Shown here piece after piece: positions 1,002 to 11,699 of a stretch of DNA of 64,000 nt. Numbering within the stretch: the stretch's first letter is position 1; each line of letters starts with the position of its first letter. The translations under genes and the position numbers were made by a program. Source of the stretch: Aphelidium insulamus (Eukaryota; Aphelidiomycota; Aphelidea; Aphelidiaceae); the NCBI GenBank assembly GCA_036784855.1, contig JAZDSV010000054.1, positions 1 to 64,000 of the forward strand, read 5' to 3'. Under the pieces are notes generated by a model. That model was given only the letters and a program-made list of their open reading frames with translations, searched no databases and was not told the origin of the DNA.

Positions 1002-1234
1002 CCCCCCCCCCCCCCCCCATATACACGCCCCCGGTTTTTTAGTCGCTACTATTACTTCCACATTTATTCTCCCAATTACTCTCTTAAGCTAAAATGCTGT
1101 CGGAATTTCTATCCCGCTTTTTACTAGTGACATGCCAGTATTCAACGGGAGATTTGCTGCAGAATTTACAGCGGACAACTTGTGTCCAGGATATACACTG
1201 GTAACTACTGATGTGGACTAGTCCCGTCGAAACT
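1002..1234 (+). repeat. Left terminal inverted repeat
   Basis: Starts with 17 consecutive C (1002-1018), followed by ATATACACGCCCCCGG and about 200 bp that match the reverse complement of 11355-11586. The outer 45 bp and a block from about 1165 to 1234 are almost identical between ends, while the middle has substitutions and small indels. Similarity stops at about 1234. No ORF in it looks coding. Confidence 0.92.
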
Positions 1235-1431
1235 GGAGAGGCATTGAGATATTGAACTACAACAGGATATTCCCACAAATTTGAACGTGGTACTTGAAGG
1301 TGTCTAACCAAATCAGAGCGCGTACTGATTCTCAAGCTGAAGTTGCTAGCTGTTGAACTCTGCCTTATTATATGGATTTGGAAGTCTAAATTAAAGTGAA
1401 TGTTCATACTGCCATGACTTTACTCTCGTCG

Positions 1432-1956
1432 TTAATCGATGTAGTTGTCACCTGCCTTCCGTGTACTGCCCGACTTCTTGGTGACTGGAGTAGCGACAGG
1501 CGTTGCTGGTACTTGCTTGGTGACTTGGACGACTTCTCCTTCTTGGACAGCTGGTTCTTCAGCCGCCTGCAAACGTTCTTCCAGCTCCTTCTTCTTGCCA
1601 GCAGTACTAAGACCGCGTGCCAACAACTCTGCCCTCAAGTCGGTAACGGTAACGCGTGAAAGTGAAGTCTGTCCCGGTGTCGGCACCAGATGAGTCGACG
1701 ACGATGACGCGACAGGAGGGTGGCGTTCTGGCTGTGGTTGTGGTGGCTGTTGTTGTGGCTGTTGCTGTTGTTGTTGATACTGACGTTGAAGCAAGAACAA
1801 CTGGTGCTGGATTCGCACAACGTCATCCACGGGCCGATTGCTGAAGTCGTAGTACGTGTCGTGTGAGTCCTGTCTGTGGTAATGTCCATTCGGTCCAAAT
1901 TGACCTTCCCATGGATCCGTCTGTGTGCCCTGTTCTTGTGCCCGTTCTTCTGCCAT
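1432..1956 (-). CDS. SAP-domain DNA-binding protein of the element
   Basis: 174 residues from the first ATG at 1956; the frame is open further upstream but without an ATG. The N-terminal half is low-complexity, with a Gln/Pro-rich stretch. At about residues 100-135 is a SAP-type helix-extended-helix motif (TVTDLRAELLARGLSTAGKK followed by ELEERLQAA), a known nucleic-acid-binding fold that recognises AT-rich DNA. The C-terminus is Val/Thr/Lys-rich and basic. It is the first gene inside the left repeat and is transcribed toward that end. A role in binding the element's ends or packaging its DNA is plausible but inferred. The compact SAP core is the only recognisable part. Confidence 0.75.
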   Translation of the reverse strand: MAEERAQEQGTQTDPWEGQFGPNGHYHRQDSHDTYYDFSNRPVDDVVRIQHQLFLLQRQYQQQQQQPQQQPPQPQPERHPPVASSSSTHLVPTPGQTSLSRVTVTDLRAELLARGLSTAGKKKELEERLQAAEEPAVQEGEVVQVTKQVPATPVATPVTKKSGSTRKAGDNYID

Positions 1957-2583
1957 TTTGTTGATAGTGAAATGTAAGATTGGCGTTTTCTCTTCTCTCT
2001 TCACAAAAATGTTTGATTTTGAAGACGCCAATATTGCCTTCCTATTTCGTCAACACTTGGACACGCTGAACAGCGATATGGCCCGCCTGAACTGCTTTGA
2101 TGGTGTGCCGTGCTCGCTTGGTGGCGCGTGCTGAAGCTGTGCCTGTTGCCGCTGGAAGGAAAGCTGTCCGCCCAGTCCTGTGCCTTGATTACTGCACGCG
2201 TGATGATGGCATTGTCTCAGTGCTTTCACACTTCACCATATATAACAGACCCGGGTGTATTTATGCACGACCACCGGCGAGTTTGAGGTCGGAGGAGACT
2301 TTGCCTAGCGCGTGTGGTTTTCTGTTGGCACGCGAGTGACTGTGGCATTATGGGCGCGAGTTTAGTACCGAACGAGAAGATTGCGCCGTGGATAACGCTA
2401 AGCCAATTTTTATTTTCGATATTGTTTGAACTCACCTTTTAGACTCTTCGCCTGTGGATACTGCTGTTTCAAGTCGTCATTTGACGTCGTCTTGTGGTTA
2501 GTTTCTATTGGCTAGTTGAGACCGAGCTTATCTGGTATTTAGATGGCGGAATCAGTGGTCGGCACTTTCTTTCTTCGAAAGAA
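1957..2583. other. Intergenic region between divergent element genes
   Basis: About 630 bp separate the leftward SAP gene from the rightward zinc-finger-like gene. Short ORFs here look like chance. A TATA-like stretch (CCATATATAACAGACC) lies near 2236-2251. Nothing else is recognisable. Confidence 0.4.
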
Positions 2584-4184
2584 ATGAAATGTGGTCGCAA
2601 GAGGTGCTTTGTTGAAGTCGGTGACGATAACGATGTTGATGCATTCTTGCCGCCGACACCGCCTGCTCTGCGGCGAAATCTTTTTGATGATGTCGAACTT
2701 CTGTCAGGGCGTGTTGATTCACCGAGTAAGAATAATATTATTAATGGATTTATTAATTTTGTAGCTGGCACTTCTGGACGTGCTTTGATATTCCGCGAGG
2801 AACTGAAGACTGGTACGCAATCATTCAAGAATTGTGCTGATAGCATTTAGAGCGAGCAAATCAGAATTACGACAAACTCTTCTTGACTGGTCAACATGAG
2901 TCCGGTTTGAAAATTAGTACATGCAAGGAATGCGGACAGCCGATGGACTGGACAGTGGGAGATGGCATACGCAAAGTCGGCGCTCGATACTATTATTACA
3001 CTTTTCACCACGGCGATTGTTTGCTGGCAGGCCAGAACGCCAAGGTACATATCACTGTCTCACATCATCGCCACCACCCACCCGCCTGATTTGCGGTATT
3101 GTCATCAATCGGGTGGGGGTGGCGGTTATTGATATCTTTGATTAGTTGACTGACACTGTTTTGTAGGCAATGGACAAGCATCGTGCGATTCAGGCGGATG
3201 CTGATGGCATTGCAGACCCCGAACTGAAACGCCAAAAGTTGATGGAGTCTGCCATCTATGCACAGTCTCAAAAGGTACATATCACTATCTCACATCCTCA
3301 CCACCACCCACCTGCCTGTTTGCGGGATTATCATCCGTTGGGTGGTGGTGGCGGGATATTGATATCTTTGATTATTTGACTGACACTGAATTTTGTAGAA
3401 CAACGGCTCGGAGAAGCAAACGGCTGCGGACTTGCGGGCAAAGGAAAGAAAGAAGCAGAAAATAGCTGGGCTGCCAGAAGTCACTCGTCCGCATTTTGCC
3501 TCGTTTGTGGTCAAGGCACCATTCATTCGCAACGCCGTCTCGTCGCTTATTCTGCCTGCCAGCGAGATTCCGACTTCAGCTGTCAAGACCCTCCTCCTGT
3601 TTGACCGCGAGACTTGCAAGCAAGCTTCGCCTGGTACCGTCAAGCCAGAGCACATGCGCGAAATCTCTTTTCTGGATTACGACACCAAAGTCAGCACTGT
3701 TTTTCAGCTGGAGCCCTACAACTCGGATGTCACCACGAATGATGATGTGCGTTTGCGACAGTTGGCACTCGATATTCTGCAAGTTATTCCTGACAACGCT
3801 GGGGTTCGCCTCGGATATTGCCAACGCGTGAACGGTGACATGTCACATTTGTTGAACCTGCTGGACGACTTTGCAGACGCAGAGAACAAGGCACGCAAAT
3901 TCCCTGTTCGTCGGGCGATGTTCATTGACTATCAACGCGAGTTGATAATGAAGGTGTTTGCGGACAACACTCACGATTCTCTCGACGATACGAACACTGC
4001 CGTATACGCCGTCGACCACAAGCTCGGAACTTTGAGCAAACGTTTCTGGGAGAGTTCAACGTCGTCGATAGAGAGGAAACTGGAAGTTGTAGTGGTGCCG
4101 CGCAAGCCGAGTGCCAAGTCAGAGTTGGATAACGCTCATGTCTGGCACTTGATTCGGCACGTTGCAAAGGCATGTCGTCAATGA
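2584..4184 (+). CDS. Element protein with putative zinc-binding segment, four exons
   Basis: Model: join(2584..2812, 2851..3044, 3167..3274, 3399..4184), 438 residues, all junctions in frame. The 38-bp first intron is inferred from frame continuity; the second and third introns (122 and 124 bp) have clear GTACAT...TTGTAG ends. The N-terminal exon is acidic and has a Pro-rich patch (FLPPTPPALRR). Exon 2 has a CxxC...HxxxC arrangement (CKECG, later FHHGDC) that could bind zinc. The last exon is a 260-residue mixed region that I cannot assign. No capsid, protease or recombinase motif is visible. It may be structural or regulatory for the element. The splicing model is strong for exons 2-4 and weaker for the first junction. 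Confidence 0.65.
3045..3166 (+). repeat. Introner-like intron copy 1
   Basis: A 122-bp phase-0 intron after an AAG codon. It starts GTACATATCACTGTCTCACA, has an internal inverted repeat (CGCCACCACCCACCCG and CGGGTGGGGGTGGCG) and ends TTGACTGACACTGTTTTGTAG. It is near-identical along its length to the intron at 3275-3398. Confidence 0.85.
3275..3398 (+). repeat. Introner-like intron copy 2
   Basis: A 124-bp phase-0 intron, also after AAG. It shares the start GTACATATCACT, the internal inverted repeat of CCACCACCCACC with GGTGGTGGTGG, and the end GATATCTTTGATTATTTGAC...TTTTGTAG with copy 1. The 108-bp exon between the copies does not resemble the exon before copy 1, which argues against simple exon-plus-intron duplication. 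Confidence 0.85.
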
Positions 4185-4258
4185 TAGCGTCAATACATGT
4201 CCTGAGCGAGATGCGACGTTTATAACTTTATAATCTCTGGTTAAAATCTCTCTCACTC

Positions 4259-4351
4259 ATGCGCACCGTTATTCCATGCAGTATCGTCAGGTCTTCCTAC
4301 CTCTGGACACTGCCACTGAACAGGCAGGTGAAGGTACACTTTTTATTTTAA
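4259..4351 (+). pseudogene. Fragment paralogous to the N-terminus of the 10650-11237 gene
   Basis: A short ORF begins MRTVIPCSIVRSSYLWTLPL, matching the start of the minus-strand gene at 11237 (MRTVIPCTTVRSTYLKTLPL) at 16 of 20 residues. Many of the DNA differences are at third codon positions, so the peptide was once, or still is, under selection. The frame stops at 4349-4351 after about 30 residues. A GTACAC directly after the last conserved Lys codon could be a splice donor, but I found no downstream exon that continues the paralog. It may be a gene remnant, a leader peptide or a first exon. Confidence 0.5.
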
Positions 4352-4399
4352 TATTATAATATTCTCTAAAGTTATCCAATACATACACATATACACATA

Positions 4400-4858
4400 A
4401 TGCGGAAATCCATTTCAGAACTCTTGGCCAAGCCATGCAAGAAAGTCGGAACTATCCGCAACTCCAAGGGAGTCTGTGTAAAACCTCCCGCTACCCCTTC
4501 CAAACCCAAGTCCGCTCCTCGTGTCAATACGGTCAAGATGGTCTCCAAGCGAGCATCTGACCCTGCTTACACCATCAACCCGGCGACTGGACGATACGTT
4601 CTAAAGGTCCGCAAGGCACGTGTACGCCAACCTCCAGCACATCCATGTCCTTCTGGACAGCGCTATTACGCCAAGGCCAAGGGGTGTAAGGATGTAAAAC
4701 AAGGACCGAAGCAAGCGCGTTGCCCAAAGGGTACGAAGCGCAGCAAAAAAGCCACGGGTGCATGCTACACTCCGGTTCGACGAGTCGCGCGTGTTTCGGG
4801 CCTATCTGTCAATAATAATAGAAAAGTTGAATTAAACCAACGTTTGAAAATGAAATAG
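4400..4858 (+). CDS. Small basic Cys-rich element protein with TGR-type motif
   Basis: 152 residues, very rich in Lys and Arg. It holds three Cys pairs of the pattern C-x(9-12)-C in similar contexts (CKKVGTIRNSKGVC, CPSGQRYYAKAKGC, CPKGTKRSKKATGAC), like a short repeat. It also has a central YTINPATGRYVLK motif. A 'NP.TGR.(I/V)' core resembles the two-cysteine adaptor segments of large DNA viruses; that link is from memory. The composition suggests a DNA-condensing or virion-core-like protein. It lies between the spliced gene and the orphan at 5095 on the same strand. The ATG at 4400 follows an AT-rich leader. Confidence 0.65.
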   Translation: MRKSISELLAKPCKKVGTIRNSKGVCVKPPATPSKPKSAPRVNTVKMVSKRASDPAYTINPATGRYVLKVRKARVRQPPAHPCPSGQRYYAKAKGCKDVKQGPKQARCPKGTKRSKKATGACYTPVRRVARVSGLSVNNNRKVELNQRLKMK

Positions 4859-4937
4859 ATTGTTACAGCTCAGTTTCGCTCATTACGATATATTCGGTTT
4901 CTGTAGTGGACACTCCACGGCAGCTTCAAACTGTATG

Positions 4938-4955
4938 TCACAATATATATTGTGA
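4938..4955. promoter_or_regulatory. Perfect 18-bp palindrome in an intergenic region
   Basis: TCACAATATATATTGTGA is its own reverse complement. It lies 80 bp after the stop of the basic protein gene and 139 bp before the next ATG. It could be a repressor site, a terminator hairpin or a chance AT palindrome. Confidence 0.45.
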
Positions 4956-5094
4956 TATATCACTGATACGTAGCAGACGCGCCAACTTCAGTGGCTGAGG
5001 CTGCAATTGGTGTTACAACTCTGGAAATCAATTATGGTAGGCAGCGTCCGCAAATAATCATATTTCAGAAGCAAACTTTCACTTCACTTCTTCC

Positions 5095-5988
5095 ATGGAA
5101 ACGCAAAGCGCGGCAGAAGCTCGCAAGCAGTTCATCAAATGGATGACCGACGAATTGAACAAACCGCCGGAGCAAATCAAGGCCGACATTGACGCGATAT
5201 CGGTGACAGTGCTACGTCCGATTCTCAAGGCCGCTGCACAGAACTCGGGTCAAGCAGCAGCGGAAACGCTAGCAGAGTCTTTCAAATCGGTCAAACAGTT
5301 GCTTCTGACTCACGGTCCAAGTGCTAGTCGACTTACTGCTGCCGATGCATCACTTCACATTTACTCCGTTCGAACACGAGAAATGAGCGTGACTGATGTC
5401 ACCAAGTCGGAACTCACTGTCGCTATCAAGAAGAATCTAGCGTTCACCGTCCGTGGCGAGAATGAGGTCAATCATCGGCGCATGTTGATAGCCGAGCAGC
5501 TGGGTAATCTACTTGAGCTGTTTCAACGGCCAGGCGCGACGAGTCGGTCAATGGCGGCCTTTTACAAGTACATCAAGAGCAACTTCCATATCTCGAAACC
5601 GACGTTTTGCTTCTACCAACAGTATTATCAACTGCTGACCGATTACCCGCGATTTCAACATGCGGCCATTTCGTTTCGTGTCATTCGCGGATATACAACA
5701 AAGATTCGAGCGTGGTTTCAGAGTGCCGAGTGCAGCGCCCTGGCTGCTACTGACTACCAGTCGGCCACATTTTGGCTGGCAGTGCCCACTCAAACACACG
5801 ACTTTGATACTACCTTTGATATTGTCAAGGCTGTCGTGACGGACGCCGTCGCTCAAAGCCAAGCAACAGCGCCTTTGGAACCTCGTAGTCGCATATCACA
5901 GGCAAATTTGAGGTCGTTTTTTTCGCGACCTCCTGGTCTTACCCATACACGAGTTCCCATTCGTGCAGGAAGTCCTATGTCTACCTGA
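5095..5988 (+). CDS. Orphan element protein, 297 residues
   Basis: An intact ORF with a plausible ATG directly after a CACTTCACTTCTTCC leader. The first about 80 residues look helical and polar. A middle block has many aromatic residues (FYKYIKSNFHISKPTFCFYQ), and the C-terminus is Arg/Pro-rich. There is no signal peptide or membrane segment. I recognise no family. It stands just upstream of the polymerase and the paired palindromes, so it could be a replication or virion protein, but nothing in the sequence decides this. Confidence 0.6.
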   Translation: METQSAAEARKQFIKWMTDELNKPPEQIKADIDAISVTVLRPILKAAAQNSGQAAAETLAESFKSVKQLLLTHGPSASRLTAADASLHIYSVRTREMSVTDVTKSELTVAIKKNLAFTVRGENEVNHRRMLIAEQLGNLLELFQRPGATSRSMAAFYKYIKSNFHISKPTFCFYQQYYQLLTDYPRFQHAAISFRVIRGYTTKIRAWFQSAECSALAATDYQSATFWLAVPTQTHDFDTTFDIVKAVVTDAVAQSQATAPLEPRSRISQANLRSFFSRPPGLTHTRVPIRAGSPMST

Positions 5989-6070
5989 CGAATCTGATGA
6001 CAAATCCAAATTAATAAGGCAGCTCCATATCAACTTTTGCTGTATCAATTGTGTGGATTGCTTAGCAACT

Positions 6071-6171
6071 GTCTTCCGCGGAAGACACGAATTTGCAACC
6101 TCCACTCATAAATCTGATTCAATTCAACATTCAATTTTTTTGTATTTTTTTGGTTGTCTTCCGCGGAAGAC
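6071..6171. repeat. Paired 16-bp palindromes upstream of the polymerase
   Basis: The perfect palindrome GTCTTCCGCGGAAGAC occurs twice, at 6071-6086 and 6156-6171, with start points 85 bp apart, between the 5095 gene and the polymerase start at 6274. Identity over 16 bp is unlikely by chance. Such a pair suggests binding sites for a dimeric regulator or an initiator at an internal origin. Confidence 0.7.
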
Positions 6172-6273
6172 GCTTTACTCATTCGTTTCCGTTATCTGAA
6201 TCCCGCCAAACATAAAATTAGAAACTCATAATGGAATCGCTAAAAAATTGATTATCTCTGTTTAAAGTATAAG

Positions 6274-7953
6274 ATGAAAAAACCCAAACACAACCTGTTT
6301 GAAACTGTTGACGACAACGCCATTGACTACTTCCAGGTATACAATCATGGTCAGTTGGGGCTACGATACAAGCGCCGAAAACTCAATCCTAAATCACCCT
6401 TGCACACGAGCAGTGACATCGACAAGAAGGCCGTTAAAGTTGTGCTTGCAAAGTTGGTGCGCAAACGACGCGTTAAACTTGTACCGGGGTTCATTCTCAC
6501 CAAGAGCAACGACTTCATCAAGTCTACTCCCAGGGTCATTGAGCAGATGGAGCGTGGTGGGTACTATGTACAAGGGGGAATTGTTCGCAAACGCCGACGT
6601 TCAGACACCAGCCAAGGTGACAATGCACCTCCTAAAAGATTTGAAATGGAAGACCCATGCCTTGATTTAGTCAATGTTCACTACACCATTTCATATGTTA
6701 CTCACTGTGATGATAGTGAACAGGAACGTGACCATGGTGGCTTCATACGAGATATTGGGCTTCTAGACGTCCAATCTCATCTTGAGGATGTTAGCAAGGA
6801 ATATTGTAGAAGGCAGGCGTATCGAACGCGTACTAAACGCATAGTGTACACCACTGAGAATGTACCCAGCAATCCACAGCCATTGGAGAGTGAGAGGATG
6901 TTTGGCACAGTGGTGAATTATCATTATCTGAAAGCAGAGCCAAATGTAGCTGTTGATAATGACTGTGTTTATCAGTTTCTGCTCAATACGTACGGTAGTA
7001 AGAGTATCACTAAGCGCACTTTGTTGGAAATATTTGGTGAATCCAGTGCTGCTGCAGGCGTGTCAACAAAACAAGTAGCCGGTCTCTGTAAGCGATTCTG
7101 CATCTCGTTGTACGCGTTGGACATGGACTACAACGTGTTTTATCATTATGCACCAGCTGAACGCAGTCACAAATTGACTTCATTAGTGTATGTTGTCGCA
7201 AACAATCACATGTACCCAGTTGTAGACCAGTCACTACGCAAAAGTATCTTTGCGAGTACAAACAACTCCAAGTTCACAACAAAAGCCAAGTCTGATGCAG
7301 TCAAGATTAACAAGTCCGCTGAAAACACATTGGTGAATCCAACGGACCTCAACGGCCTGGCCAATGTTAATGTCGTGTTCACAGAGGTGAAAACACTACT
7401 TCCAATAGTAAAACAGCTATTCGTGTCTGAGAAAACCATATATGAGACCAATGGATATGCAGGTTGTATTTCACGCCTAGACTACAAGAACAACGTGACA
7501 ATCAGCATCAATGAAGATTACGAAGTAGCACGCAGAAATGCAGAAAGTTTATCGATTCCATTTCGAAATCAGAATCTCATCCACCTTGTAAATGAAGCGT
7601 TCAATGCGTATAGAGAAGACGATAGAATACATAGTACATTTAATGCCACAGCAAGAGATGTGTTTTTTAATCACGTCAAACGTCCATTCGACCACACATT
7701 CTACGTGCCAGATACTAGTGCTAGGTTGAAGTCATTTGATATTCAAAAATGCCACTCTGCCTGCCTAAGTACAAAGAATGCAAACCCGTGGAGTGTTTAT
7801 TGTGTATTTGATGAGATACGCATGTACAGTGGCTCTATGCAGGATGGCTTTTCTATGTGGAAACGGAGAACTATTTTCCACTGCGAGGGAATGGCTGGTA
7901 CTCAATGGGACTACTGCAATACGCTGCTGGTGAGAAAATCGACTATAACATAA
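6274..7953 (+). CDS. Family B DNA polymerase, N-terminal part (frame 1 of a broken ORF)
   Basis: From ATG 6274 this frame encodes a basic N-terminus, then at about residues 210-320 a block with NDCVYQFLLNTYG and later VVANNHMYPVVD, i.e. a Cys and a His spaced as in some cysteine hydrolases. Polymerase motif A follows at about residue 488 (FDIQKCHSACL). Coding similarity to the polymerase family ends near 7850. The frame then runs on in noise to 7953, while the adjacent frame takes over with the family's conserved VETENYFPLRGNGWYS segment. One T is missing from what should be five at about 7849-7853 (C-TTTT-C), which equals a -1 shift. No 3'-5' exonuclease motifs are obvious. It is followed by the palm, helicase and HNH segments. 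Confidence 0.75.
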   Translation: MKKPKHNLFETVDDNAIDYFQVYNHGQLGLRYKRRKLNPKSPLHTSSDIDKKAVKVVLAKLVRKRRVKLVPGFILTKSNDFIKSTPRVIEQMERGGYYVQGGIVRKRRRSDTSQGDNAPPKRFEMEDPCLDLVNVHYTISYVTHCDDSEQERDHGGFIRDIGLLDVQSHLEDVSKEYCRRQAYRTRTKRIVYTTENVPSNPQPLESERMFGTVVNYHYLKAEPNVAVDNDCVYQFLLNTYGSKSITKRTLLEIFGESSAAAGVSTKQVAGLCKRFCISLYALDMDYNVFYHYAPAERSHKLTSLVYVVANNHMYPVVDQSLRKSIFASTNNSKFTTKAKSDAVKINKSAENTLVNPTDLNGLANVNVVFTEVKTLLPIVKQLFVSEKTIYETNGYAGCISRLDYKNNVTISINEDYEVARRNAESLSIPFRNQNLIHLVNEAFNAYREDDRIHSTFNATARDVFFNHVKRPFDHTFYVPDTSARLKSFDIQKCHSACLSTKNANPWSVYCVFDEIRMYSGSMQDGFSMWKRRTIFHCEGMAGTQWDYCNTLLVRKSTIT

Positions 7954-8543
7954 AGTACAAAATCATTCCCAGCTTTCTCTTGCCCGCTGATTATTTCAAC
8001 GCGTTCGTGGAAAGAATCTTCACCAAGTGCGAAAACCCGAAAAAGATGATGAACTGTTTCATTGGCTGCCTGAACAAAAAGACAAAGCGTACGCAAAAGG
8101 ACCGATTTGTGTGCTCGGTGAATGACGCGGTCCGGTACTACCACAAAGACAAGAACACGGTGTACTTTATCTATCCAGACTGTCCCGACTTGTACCATAT
8201 CGCTACTCAAAAGGAGACACCATTACACGAAAACAGCATTCCAATTTACTGGCAGGTAATTGACAATTGCTGCATAATGCTGCACAAACTAGCAAAAGCC
8301 GCTGGGGGTCGGCTTGTCAAGTTGAAGACCGATTGTGTTGTGGTTGAGAATGGCCGTGACGTGCACTGTAGTCTGGGAGTGGGCAATTATCGTACAGAGT
8401 CTCTACCGGACCAATACACCATGTCTGTTCCTTTTCGTAATGATTATATTTCCTTTTGCCAATGTCAAGTTGGAACGAGGAATGCACTGGGTCCGAGCGT
8501 TTATTGTGCGGCAGAGCAGGTACGGGCAAATCTTGGAAAATAA
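7857..8543 (+). CDS. Family B DNA polymerase, palm part (frame 0)
   Basis: Continues the polymerase after the first frame change. It holds VETENYFPLRGNGWYSMG, a motif-B-like MNCFIGCLNKKTKR and a motif-C-like LKTDCVVVENG, where the usual DTD is reduced to TDC. No ATG is needed if it is translated by frameshifting; otherwise the piece is non-functional. Useful coding probably ends near 8455, where a second C-TTTT site again moves the reading by -1 into the helicase frame; beyond that this frame runs to 8543 without family character. I infer one original Pol-helicase fusion. Confidence 0.75.
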   Translation: METENYFPLRGNGWYSMGLLQYAAGEKIDYNIKYKIIPSFLLPADYFNAFVERIFTKCENPKKMMNCFIGCLNKKTKRTQKDRFVCSVNDAVRYYHKDKNTVYFIYPDCPDLYHIATQKETPLHENSIPIYWQVIDNCCIMLHKLAKAAGGRLVKLKTDCVVVENGRDVHCSLGVGNYRTESLPDQYTMSVPFRNDYISFCQCQVGTRNALGPSVYCAAEQVRANLGK

Positions 8544-9496
8544 AGAAAATTGTTAAAGGACTGGACAACTATGCACTGCTGGCAACCACCAACAAAGCTG
8601 CCAAGCTGATAAATGGACAAACAGTGCATTCATTCTTTGGCATTGACATCAATGGGAGCTACAGCAAAGACGTGGTGTTGAAGATTGCGAGAAAATACGA
8701 CCACATCATAATTGATGAGTACAGCATGCTCAGTGCCGCGGTCTATGAGGTACTGTACGTAATCAAGTTGAATACCAACGTCAAGTTCATTCTCGTTGGC
8801 GACCACGAACAGTTGGGTGCAGTTGAAGAGAAAAGCTACGACTACTTCAACTCGGAAATTCTCAAAGAACTTGTCAACAACAACTTCCAACAACTGACTG
8901 TCAACAGGCGGTCTGATGATGAAATGTTTTCGCTGTATACGCATATCGACGAGCTTACACTGTGTGACTTTGGTGATACTGCGAATACAAGAATCCACAT
9001 ATGCTACACAAACAACAAGCGCAAGGAAATAAACGAGATTATGATGAAGCAAGACAAACTGAAGAAGAAGCGAATGCTCTCTGTTCCCGCAAATCCTAGT
9101 GACCCAAACTCGCAAGATGTGCAGCTGACTACCGGTACGCCGCTAATGGTAATTAAAAACTGCAAGTCCAAGGAACTAGTCAATGGTAGTACGTACAAGG
9201 TGATGCCGATAACCGGGAAATTCCAGATACGCATCAAGTGCGATGACACGGGTGAAGTGCGTGAAATTGATTTGGAAATGTTCAAGGAGTACTTTTATGT
9301 AAACTACTGCTCAACCGTGTTCAAGTGTCAGGGAATGACATTTACAGACCCGTACACAATTCACGAGTGGAACAGGATGTCACGCAGGATGAAGTACACG
9401 GCCATTAGTCGAGCAACTTGCAAAGACCTCATCAATGTTGTCGCGTCGGAATCAGATGTGTCAGATGTCCCAGACACTGATTTCAAGAAGCTCTAG
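8456..9496 (+). CDS. Superfamily 1 DNA helicase (frame 2)
   Basis: About 345 residues with complete SF1 motifs: Walker A CGRAGTGKS at about residue 18, an ATTNKAAKLI segment (motif Ia), Walker B HIIIDEYSML, motif III LVGDHEQLGAV, a motif V-like TVFKCQGMTF and motif VI YTAISRAT. This is the Pif1/RecD-like architecture used to unwind DNA during replication. The first ATG is at 8462, only about ten residues before the P-loop strand, so the protein probably began in the upstream polymerase frame. It ends at TAG 9494-9496, after which the same frame stays open into the HNH segment. Confidence 0.85.
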   Translation: MPMSSWNEECTGSERLLCGRAGTGKSWKIKKIVKGLDNYALLATTNKAAKLINGQTVHSFFGIDINGSYSKDVVLKIARKYDHIIIDEYSMLSAAVYEVLYVIKLNTNVKFILVGDHEQLGAVEEKSYDYFNSEILKELVNNNFQQLTVNRRSDDEMFSLYTHIDELTLCDFGDTANTRIHICYTNNKRKEINEIMMKQDKLKKKRMLSVPANPSDPNSQDVQLTTGTPLMVIKNCKSKELVNGSTYKVMPITGKFQIRIKCDDTGEVREIDLEMFKEYFYVNYCSTVFKCQGMTFTDPYTIHEWNRMSRRMKYTAISRATCKDLINVVASESDVSDVPDTDFKKL

Positions 9497-9547
9497 GCTA
9501 AAGAGAAACGAGAGCGAAGGGGGAATGATGAGTTATTCAAAAAGCGA

Positions 9548-9817
9548 ATGGAAGCACTGGCGGTCATCAACAACATTGTACGCAAAGGGAATGTCAGTGA
9601 TGACTTTTGTTACCAACATACGTTCAAAACACGACGGGAGCTATTGGAACATTTGAAGATTGACTGCGGAACTGTGCCAAAAGGATACGAAATAGACCAT
9701 ATAAGACCTAGAAGTGAGCATGTTACCGACGACGATTTTAGGCAGATTAACGCGTACTGGAATCTCAGACTGCTGACACGTAAAGATAATAATGAGCGAA
9801 ATTGGATAAAAGATTAG
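9548..9817 (+). CDS. HNH endonuclease domain, in frame with the helicase
   Basis: 89 residues with an HNH-type core: GYEIDHIRPRSEH, then NLRLLTRKDNNERNW (the His-Asn-Asn pattern). The frame is the same as the helicase and is open between the TAG at 9494-9496 and this ATG, with a charged linker (AKEKRERRGNDELFKKR). This suggests the nuclease was a C-terminal domain of one Pol-helicase-HNH protein and is now cut off by one stop, or is reached by readthrough. HNH nucleases nick or cut DNA in homing, replication or packaging; here it is the only nuclease I can recognise in the element. Confidence 0.75.
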   Translation: MEALAVINNIVRKGNVSDDFCYQHTFKTRRELLEHLKIDCGTVPKGYEIDHIRPRSEHVTDDDFRQINAYWNLRLLTRKDNNERNWIKD

Positions 9818-9840
9818 CTAAGCTGTTACAAGTCATAAAA

Positions 9841-9870
9841 TTAAAATTAAATATTTTCTCCTCATACAGT
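9841..9870 (+). promoter_or_regulatory. AT-rich upstream element of the RING gene
   Basis: AAATTAAATATTTTCTCCTCATAC directly before ATG 9871 closely matches AAATTAAATTTATTTTCTCC...CTCATAC upstream of the minus-strand gene at 11237. A shared element-specific promoter or leader is likely. Confidence 0.5.
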
Positions 9871-10734
9871 ATGATGAGTAAACACGAACCAGTAAAAGAC
9901 GAACCGGTCAAAATCGAATATCAATTGAGCAGGCAAGACTTGTCGTGTTGCATCTGCTATGAAGACATTTCATTTCCGCTTATTCAGTGTTGCAGTGGAA
10001 ACCATTTCGTATGTGAGACATGCAATAAGTCTTTGAAAAATGCACAGTGTCCTGTGTGTATTGTAAACACGACGTTTAACAACTTGCTGCTGCAACGTCT
10101 CTTGTATCCACAGATGGAACCGTGTCACAATGCCGGATGTCGTGATAGGTCATTCAAGTGGGGTGTTGAAGCACACGAGAAGGCGTGCAAGTACGCGCCT
10201 ACAGAGTGTTTCTTGTGCAACACAACAATTACAAGTCATGCACTGGAACAACACTTGAGGAATGAATGCGACGCCAGCTGGACAGAAGAAACGGATGCAG
10301 TCAACGGAAGATTCTACAAGTACATCCCCAAGCCGCGACACCGGATGGTGTTGTCAAAGAATCACAAAAACACCGTCATATTCATAGATGGCATAATCAT
10401 AATGTTTAAGGCCGTGTTGGATGGATATCGAGTAGGCTTGATTAATAGTGAAAACAATGAACGACTTGTGAGTATACTGAAAGTGACTACTTCTAAAGCA
10501 AAGGACTATGCAGTCAGGACTGATGTGGTAAGCCATTGCTACAAATCATTAAAGGACTTGAATGCGATTGAAGAGTTGCCCACCATTTCATCGACAGTCA
10601 AAGAAGTCTGGATAAGCATATTCAGCGGGAACTATAAATACGAAGGAGATTATGGCGATTTCGAAGTTGAAGGAGTTGATGATGTCGATGTTGACGACGT
10701 TGGAGACGCGATGAGTGAGAGCAACTCTGACTGA
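9871..10734 (+). CDS. SIAH-like RING E3 ubiquitin ligase carried by the element
   Basis: 287 residues. Residues about 25-65 form a C3HC4 RING (CCICYEDISFPLIQCCSGNH, then CETCNKSLKNAQCPVC). It is followed by the SIAH-type double zinc finger: EPCHNAGC, HEKACKYAPTECFLC, HALEQHLRNEC. In seven-in-absentia proteins this module binds E2 enzymes and substrates. The C-terminal part is less conserved and ends in an acidic Asp/Glu-Val tail. The gene has no intron. Its 3' end overlaps the end of the convergent gene at 10650 by 85 bp. A host-derived ligase could target host restriction or replication proteins; that role is inferred. Confidence 0.85.
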   Translation: MMSKHEPVKDEPVKIEYQLSRQDLSCCICYEDISFPLIQCCSGNHFVCETCNKSLKNAQCPVCIVNTTFNNLLLQRLLYPQMEPCHNAGCRDRSFKWGVEAHEKACKYAPTECFLCNTTITSHALEQHLRNECDASWTEETDAVNGRFYKYIPKPRHRMVLSKNHKNTVIFIDGIIIMFKAVLDGYRVGLINSENNERLVSILKVTTSKAKDYAVRTDVVSHCYKSLKDLNAIEELPTISSTVKEVWISIFSGNYKYEGDYGDFEVEGVDDVDVDDVGDAMSESNSD

Positions 10735-11237
10735 ATACGCGGTTGACTTTGTACGAGAGTAGAAAGCTTTGTAGGATTGTTTAAAATGATGGCTATATCA
10801 TTTTCAACGGAAACACCAGTACTAGGTACACTATCAAAGTGAAATACAAGGCCGTTGGACAGCGAGTAAATACCTTGCTCAGTGCGCGCGTTAAGCTTGC
10901 CACCAAATAGACGCTGTATGTGAGCATAAGTGGCGATGTTTGATAATATGGCTGAATTCAACAGTTCCAACGTGGCAATCTTCTGCTTGAGTATGAGTAC
11001 GGCGTTGGCTCTGGGGGGATTAGGCACTTTCAAGCACTTGTCAGGAATGTCGAGCAGGTCGATGGGTTTAGTATTGCCACTCACGTATGGTGCACCAACA
11101 GTCAAGCGCTTATTGCCAACCTGCTTGGATTGAACGCGGTACACGTGGCTGTTTCGAGGGTCCGTGTACACCGTGTCCAACGGGAGTGTCTTGAGATAGG
11201 TGGACCTGACTGTGGTGCATGGGATGACTGTGCGCAT
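10650..11237 (-). CDS. Terminal orphan element protein (MRTVIPC family)
   Basis: 195 residues beginning MRTVIPCTTVRSTYLKTLPL. The body is soluble and mixed, with no signal peptide, and the C-terminus is a Ser/Thr-rich tail. The N-terminus is shared with the fragment at 4259. The start is set by an AT-rich leader matching that of the RING gene. It converges on and overlaps the RING gene by 85 bp. Its place next to the right repeat mirrors that of the SAP gene at the left. I recognise no family. Confidence 0.6.
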   Translation of the reverse strand: MRTVIPCTTVRSTYLKTLPLDTVYTDPRNSHVYRVQSKQVGNKRLTVGAPYVSGNTKPIDLLDIPDKCLKVPNPPRANAVLILKQKIATLELLNSAILSNIATYAHIQRLFGGKLNARTEQGIYSLSNGLVFHFDSVPSTGVSVENDIAIILNNPTKLSTLVQSQPRIQSELLSLIASPTSSTSTSSTPSTSKSP

Positions 11238-11278
11238 TTTGTATAGTATGAGTGGAGAAAATAAATTTAATTTTTCTT
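11238..11278 (-). promoter_or_regulatory. AT-rich upstream element of the terminal orphan gene
   Basis: Read on the minus strand: AAATTAAATTTATTTTCTCC, then ACTCATAC, then ATG at 11237. It matches the leader of the RING gene apart from small indels. Confidence 0.45.
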
Positions 11279-11354
11279 GAGAACATGTCCCTGTTCCGGG
11301 CGAGTCTGCCGGGATGGGATTTGGGATTGCCAGTATATCACGTGACGGTGTCTT

Positions 11355-11586
11355 CAGTTTCGACGGGACTAGTCCACATCAGTAGTTACCAGTGTGTATC
11401 CTGGACACAAGTTGTCCGCTGTGAATTCTGCACCAAATCTAGCGTGGTATCCTGGCATGTCACTAGTAAAAAGCGGGATAGAAATCCCGACAGCATTGGA
11501 GCTTAAGAGAGACAAAGAAAGAATAAAGGCGGCAGTAATAGTAGCGACTAAAAAACCGGGGGCGTGTATATGGGGGGGGGGGGGGG
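11355..11586 (-). repeat. Right terminal inverted repeat
   Basis: Reverse complement of the left repeat. It ends in 15 consecutive G (11572-11586), preceded by the complement of ATATACACGCCCCCGG. Matching starts at CAGTTTCGACGGGACTAGTC and runs with small indels in the middle. Confidence 0.92.
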
Positions 11587-11699
11587 TAAGAATGGGAAGC
11601 AGAGTGCGCCGACTGAAACGCATGTGACAGACAGACAGCAGACCCGAATCTACCTGTCACCGAAACACCGAAAACATACTAAATAAGTGCGACAATTAT

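Follow-up and report, generated by a model that had tools for sequence, protein, structure and literature searches.

A chromosomally integrated inverted-repeat element of Aphelidium insulamus with a pPolB-S1H replication protein and no recognised capsid or integrase

The first 64,000 nucleotides of contig JAZDSV010000054.1 in the Aphelidium insulamus assembly GCA_036784855.1, hereafter the window, contain a 10.6-kb element bounded by terminal inverted repeats (TIRs), which encodes replication functions but no recognised capsid or integrase. This element is probably a chromosomally integrated, capsid-less relative of the transpovirons, which would replicate by protein priming and integrate without a dedicated integrase. 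As judged from the encoded motifs, its replication genes correspond to the pPolB-S1H module (Tlr1-like helicase) already known from polinton-like viruses, Tlr1 and transpovirons. What is unusual is the setting of this module, an element that sits in the chromosome, ends in C runs and has neither a recognised capsid nor a recognised integrase. Replication lineages that use protein priming are believed to shift between virus, plasmid and transposon lifestyles, and a pPolB-S1H transposon without a capsid that is fixed in a chromosome would show the transpoviron type of structural-module loss, free of a giant virus. The element also raises the testable question of whether a protein-primed element can spread through chromosomes without an integrase, and gains added interest from a possible stand-alone exonuclease and from an intron family almost entirely confined to the mobile element. 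No report of such an element in a fungus was found by title in the open-licence literature, and one large survey of such elements in protists, as described in PMC10120064, left out fungi.

A multicopy element family

The window element is one damaged copy of a real mobile family. Matches to its 233-bp left arm are present at 33 places of the assembly (17.95 Mb, 169 contigs), a figure that counts places, not elements, and takes in fragments and tandem pieces; seven elements show both ends, namely the window copy and those on C1, C97, C32, C22, C86 and C42 (such labels denote contigs of the same assembly carrying copies). An earlier note on this DNA had proposed a genuine inverted-repeat element, with an assembly artefact as the alternative; since 33 places match and seven elements possess both ends, the genome-wide repeat search bears out the former and excludes the latter. 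In the window, the inverted arms span 997-1239 and 11351-11593 (243 nucleotides, 90% complementary); between the 233-bp left arm and its right counterpart the match is 91%. Those on C86 and C42 are short elements derived by deletion, with both ends retained. A genome search with the first part of the polymerase gave 17 matches: seven copies or part copies show 90-93% identity in their main stretches, a polymerase fragment on C58 shows 84%, and a second element family, on C88, C165 and C63, shows 46-49%.

The left 2 kb of the window element matches the C1 copy at 96%, and the sequence further right at about 89-91%. The mean likeness of the TIRs is 0.826 within one element (n=7) and 0.848 between different elements (n=203). 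Taken together, these patterns point to an exchange of ends between copies. The elements on C154 and C76 have an identical end over the stretch compared.

Ends and insertion sites

Runs of 7 to 22 C residues were present at all 21 ends examined, usually followed by CATATACACGCCCCCGG, and the base preceding the run is A in 15 of them (binomial P 0.0005, the two C22 ends not being independent because of their common flank). The seven paired insertions have direct matches near the junction that measure 0 to 5 bases at their longest. Judged against 406 mismatched control pairs, 126 of which have a match of at least 4 bases and 36 of at least 5, none of the seven shows a credible target-site duplication. 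The duplication of about 6 bp that characterises Polintons/Mavericks was not found either, six of the seven pairs having no direct match at the junction; rve integrases are described as typically giving 6-bp duplications and tyrosine recombinases none (PMC12220804). The C22 element has an exact 4-bp TATA at its junction, but the two flanks are copies of one another in inverted orientation.

Some minor features of the flanks were also recorded. The outer flanks of the C22 element (L016/L015) are mutually inverted over more than 20 bases, and the 65 bp adjoining the left end of the window element (936-1000) recur at C128:82098-82162 with 98% identity, a likeness that stops at the left junction and is uninformative for the right side. 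No TTAGGG telomere repeat, searched as three units, occurs in the genome.

A single replication protein

The PolB, helicase and HNH open reading frames (ORFs), which the earlier note had listed as separate genes, are broken pieces of one protein. In the window, the polymerase region is split over two frames and followed by a helicase ORF and then an HNH ORF. The sister copy on C32 keeps a single natural frame of 1,185 amino acids, which runs from an N-terminal region through a vOTU-like region, a pPolB palm and an SF1 helicase to a C-terminal HNH, and which rules out stand-alone genes. The remainder of that gene list fared unevenly: the SAP and SF1 helicase assignments pass the Pfam cut-off, RING stays below threshold and HNH is weak (PF13392, E 0.061, in the C32 sister protein). 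The helicase part also matches solved SF1 helicases in the PDB (best E 9.4e-41). PolB gave no Pfam match in the window or the sister copy and was named from motifs common to its homologues: palm residues D492, K593, N597, G601 and D690 are invariant in 22 aligned rows, and at least 90% of these rows share C234 and H315 in the vOTU-like region. A region stands before the vOTU at the position where a terminal-protein-like domain would sit. Pfam found no exonuclease domain in the 1,185 amino acids, a search that missed the palm too.

Among 7,999 scored candidates, 57 homologues of the replication protein were found. The nearest is the metagenomic P0001 (56% identity), and P0002, a hypothetical protein of the chytrid Obelidium mucronatum known from the protein alone, shows 46% identity over 93% of the protein. 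Taken by themselves, this nearest relative from a named organism and the spliceosomal introns would point to a chytrid-like fungus as the probable host. In a 25-row tree, the proteins with a C-terminal HNH (those of C32 and C165, together with P0001-P0003) form one group with support 100/99; in many metagenomic relatives, the HNH is placed between vOTU and palm instead. Searches with the window polymerase part found no relative among PDB sequences or phage records. In IMG/VR, no relatives were obtained for P0002, A2 and P0010 among 12, 69 and 10 matched stretches, respectively; with A3, the figure was 372 of 563 stretches, of which 80 were kept, and the matches listed hit the helicase end only, with no gene neighbourhood of a true relative.

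The ratio of non-synonymous to synonymous substitutions (dN/dS) was computed piece by piece between copies, in comparisons that all share the window sequence and so are not independent. It amounts to 0.14-0.28 for the polymerase (six comparisons of more than 300 codons), 0.14-0.18 for the helicase ORF (four full-length comparisons) and 0.07-0.17 for the HNH part (seven comparisons).

Searches for capsid and integrase genes

The earlier statement that neither capsid nor integrase is recognisable agrees with the Pfam and PHROGs profile scans of the window ORFs. In the 10 ORFs scanned, Pfam gave no match to capsid, ATPase, protease or integrase families, including the rve-type integrase of Polintons/Mavericks and the tyrosine recombinase of Cryptons, and the sole packaging-type line from PHROGs, on the SAP ORF, is at chance level (E 0.074). 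No jelly-roll capsid or packaging ATPase was found by Pfam, PHROGs or NCBIfam, the last run on four element proteins and P0058. In the whole genome, the PF04665 ATPase family was not found by a search that detected its control in 2 of 14 cases, and the lack of a PF04451 match is uninformative, as no control was detected either. The only nuclease-like candidates in the window element are the HNH domain and an exonuclease-like gene.

The second-family copy on C63 carries a RuvC-like gene (C63:8222-8863, L030; PF09159, E 8.6e-4) and a Crypton-like tyrosine recombinase (C63:10098-11018, L115; PF00589, E 2.9e-3), both below the cut-off. Since the two kinds co-occur on four other contigs (C82, C3, C139 and C93) and a relative stands alone in C94, they were rejected as parts of the element and are more likely nested in it. 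The RuvC-like resolvase and the tyrosine recombinase may constitute a two-gene mobile element of their own. The C94 relative is an open Crypton-like tyrosine recombinase of 615 amino acids (L117:3593-5440), with a putative GCR1_C-like tail.

Relationship to known elements and proposed mechanism

As in Tlr1-like helicases, the pPolB palm precedes an SF1 helicase to which it is fused, as shown by the C32 frame, the 22-row palm alignment and the PDB helicase matches. The catalytic Cys and His of a vOTU precede this palm at residue level (C234, H315), and the combination of an inverted-repeat element, pPolB-S1H and no recognised capsid is that of the transpovirons. Because the pPolB-S1H fusion has already been described, the element forms a new branch within a known replication lineage, not an unconnected one. 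The earlier reading is thus supported in part: an inverted-repeat element with replication genes and no recognisable capsid or integrase is borne out, but the known fusion behind those replication genes had been overlooked.

Transpovirons are described as a branch whose structural module has been lost (PMC11071308), and they share with the window element the inverted repeats (380-520 nucleotides in transpovirons), the lack of a capsid, pPolB-S1H and a zinc-finger protein (PMC7031253, PMC11071308). However, transpovirons are episomes of mimiviruses, whereas the 10.6-kb window element is integrated in a eukaryotic chromosome, has many copies and shows no giant-virus link, and it adds a C-terminal HNH, the SAP, RING and 10650 genes, spliceosomal introns and C-run ends. 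The vOTU-palm-S1H order has been published for Tlr1-like helicases (PMC11071308) and is shared by Tlr1 and polinton-like viruses, in which a GIY-YIG or HNH domain follows at the C-terminus (PMC11071308, PMC12721341), but the window element has no recognisable capsid, ATPase, protease or recombinase. In the case of Polintons/Mavericks, the likeness lies in the inverted repeats and a PolB of the protein-primed lineage; unlike them, the window element has no rve integrase, no duplication was found and its helicase is fused.

Protein-primed systems are described as starting within a short terminal repeat and sliding back, PRD1 doing so on 3'-CCCC (PMC4974454). In the proposed mechanism, the N-terminal region would serve as a terminal protein that primes synthesis at the linear ends and that the vOTU protease would release. 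The C runs would allow sliding back of the primer, as the C4 template end does in PRD1, with dCMP in the same role, and sliding back or slippage at these runs would vary their length, which could account for the differences between ends. The fused helicase would open the duplex, and a separate exonuclease-like protein may supply the proofreading absent from this polymerase class. Finally, linear progeny would enter the chromosome through end-joining of protein-bound or trimmed ends, which is the least certain step, at breaks perhaps cut by the HNH domain. A more far-reaching proposal can be put forward only tentatively: a self-propagating nuclear transposon lineage derived from polinton-like viruses, lacking a capsid and any integrase of known class, with tectivirus-like replication of protein-capped linear DNA and C-run ends joined to breaks by host repair.

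Several points weigh against a protein-primed transpoviron relative. The polymerase of the window copy is broken, and motif C of its palm reads KTD, with a single aspartate where two are usual; such polymerases are reportedly termed inactivated in an earlier paper's title. The vOTU and the palm were assigned from motifs and the putative terminal-protein domain from position, and the exonuclease-like domain found no support in Pfam, PDB or NCBIfam profiles. Moreover, the two TIRs of an element are no more alike than those of different elements, which would not be expected from ordinary end repair. As for motif C, polymerase activity is predicted for Tlr1-like helicases despite its alteration (PMC11071308).

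Alternative explanations

A polinton-like virus with a capsid, ATPase and integrase diverged beyond recognition, as in the Mavericks of Trichomonas, is an unlikely reading of the element. Besides the 1,185-amino-acid protein and a zinc-finger gene of about 440 amino acids, no lone window ORF exceeds 297 amino acids, a length that is short for a double jelly-roll capsid. The earlier note had pointed to the orphans at 2584, 5095 and 10650 as the places for a hidden capsid or integrase, but none matched, Pfam, PHROGs and NCBIfam identifying nothing in the orphans; the first is probably a gene start, the second accessory and the third core. A capsid or integrase required by all copies is ruled out for 5095 by its replacement in two sister copies, and the missing PF04665 family, with the control noted above, argues in the same direction. 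What such a virus has in its favour is a replication protein that is the same as in capsid-bearing polinton-like viruses, the conservation of orphans 4400 and 10650, which were assessed by sequence only, and the precedent of a Trichomonas capsid that stayed hidden until 2023 (PMC10120064).

Still less likely is a decayed, once-complete polinton-like virus that lost its morphogenesis genes, its copies being relics moved in trans by a helper. The broken window polymerase and several broken sister genes would fit such decay, as would the deletion derivatives with both ends and the Crypton-like recombinase within a second-family copy; but purifying selection is observed in both arms, C32 holds a natural full-length replication ORF, the same core is found in two families 46-49% apart, and the recombinase also occurs elsewhere with the RuvC-like gene and so looks nested. 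A linear plasmid-type episome, integrated in the nucleus merely by accident, would agree with the lack of duplications, the C-run ends and the missing integrase, but is very improbable, because at least seven two-ended insertions, many fragments and spliceosomal introns in family members speak for a long nuclear residence.

Other genes of the element

The features of the element are collected in Table 1. The SAP gene, in the left arm, exists in different versions between copies, and its dN/dS against C1 rests on a synonymous divergence (dS) of 0.008. For the gene at 4400, dN/dS is 0.19-0.71 (eight comparisons). The RING protein has relatives that include one of 33% identity in the second family, with dN/dS of 0.12-0.48 (seven comparisons of more than 100 codons, three with stops). 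The gene at 10650 counts as core, since the second family contains a homologue of it (46-50% identity) and the deletion derivative C42 has retained it; its dN/dS is 0.15-0.42 (ten comparisons of more than 100 codons, two with stops).

Table 1. Features of the inverted-repeat element, in window coordinates unless a locus is given
Feature	Position	Strand	Remarks
Left terminal inverted repeat	1002..1234	+	C run of 17 bases at the outer end (1002-1018)
SAP-domain ORF, 174 amino acids	1432..1956	-	Probable DNA-binding protein; PF02037, E 1.2e-9
88-amino-acid ORF	2584..2850	+	Probably first coding part of zinc-finger/exonuclease-like gene; by-eye likeness to C32 first exon
Repeat intron, 122 nucleotides	3045..3166	+	AAG/GTACAT ... 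CTGAC ... TTGTAG/
Second repeat intron, 124 nucleotides	3275..3398	+	
Last exon of zinc-finger/exonuclease-like gene	3399..4184	+	Contains ORF 3654-4184; DRE and SELD by eye
Basic Cys-rich protein, 152 amino acids	4400..4858	+	Kept in 8 other copies
Orphan, 297 amino acids	5095..5988	+	Accessory; five loci genome-wide; other ORFs in its place in C97 and C154
N-terminal part, vOTU-like region and first pPolB palm part (motif A)	6274..7953	+	Part of the pPolB-S1H-HNH protein
Remaining palm (motifs B and C)	7905..8543	+	Other frame; protein broken in the window copy
SF1 helicase part of the pPolB-S1H-HNH protein	8462..9496	+	PF13245, E 4.8e-14
C-terminal HNH part of the pPolB-S1H-HNH protein	9548..9817	+	Strongest purifying selection
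RING-type zinc-finger protein, 287 amino acids	9871..10734	+	Sub-threshold RING; PF13920, E 1.4e-3
Core gene, 195 amino acids	10650..11237	-	Kept in deletion derivative and second family
Right terminal inverted repeat	11356..11586	-	C run of 15 bases at the outer end (11572-11586), minus strand
Possible stand-alone DEDD-type exonuclease	L013:4279-4944; L029:2741-3346; window 3399-4184		Motif reading

The ORF at 5095 is an accessory gene. Its matches in the genome are restricted to five loci (C124, C150, C1, C32 and C22), in C97 and C154 other ORFs fill the stretch between 4400 and the polymerase with both neighbours kept, in C168 these neighbours nearly adjoin, and no homologue was obtained among 2,550 candidates from a search of 5.8 billion proteins. 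Its dN/dS against C22 is 1.0 over 40 codons. A helix-turn-helix-like ORF upstream of the second-family polymerase was tried as its counterpart, a match that hhalign did not support (E 0.85). In C97, the slot of 5095 is occupied by a PhyH-like dioxygenase ORF (L012:106-690; PF05721, E 2.9e-4, just below the cut-off).

The zinc-finger gene and its repeat introns

The ORFs at 2584 and 3654 are probably parts of a single gene with introns. The repeats at 3042-3174 and 3272-3400 are intron-like: eleven units from four copies begin with GT, end with AG and measure 117-127 nucleotides, mostly preceded by AAG and with CTGAC ahead of their end, although among several GT the one after AAG or AAA was chosen and the branch motif was built into the search rule. 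Once they are removed, the open frame that closes with the exonuclease-like ORF grows from 261 to 364 amino acids in the window, from 278 to 449 in C1 and from 273 to 468 in C32, where the zinc-finger gene has 439 amino acids counted from the first Met. In C150, the frame grows from 281 to 336 amino acids with the added part outside the sister frame, which speaks against this copy being intact. The C1 exons between introns look like zinc-finger modules, since each carries CxxC/CxxH-like pairs.

It is possible, as a working hypothesis, that the last exon encodes a stand-alone DEDD-type exonuclease beside a polymerase class without one. In C32, C1 and the second family, this exon shows DTE, YNxTE or SVD, (L/V)DL and (K/C)xxLD, in the order found in DEDD exonucleases, and the window exon has diverged. 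The domain is kept by three database relatives among 189 candidates. Between versions of the exonuclease, hhalign probabilities reach only 33 to 59, and the equation of a 284-amino-acid second-family ORF in C88 with the same exonuclease is unsupported (E 0.19). The dN/dS of ORF 3654 against C22 is 0.73, with 3 stops.

The introner-like repeats are almost all restricted to one mobile element: 33 of the 34 intron matches in the genome share a contig with an element end, from which they are at most about 3.5 kb away, and the remaining one is on C108. Near-identical introns of 117-127 nucleotides occur in numbers of one to four per copy, between zinc-finger exons, in the window, C1, C22, C92, C168 and others.

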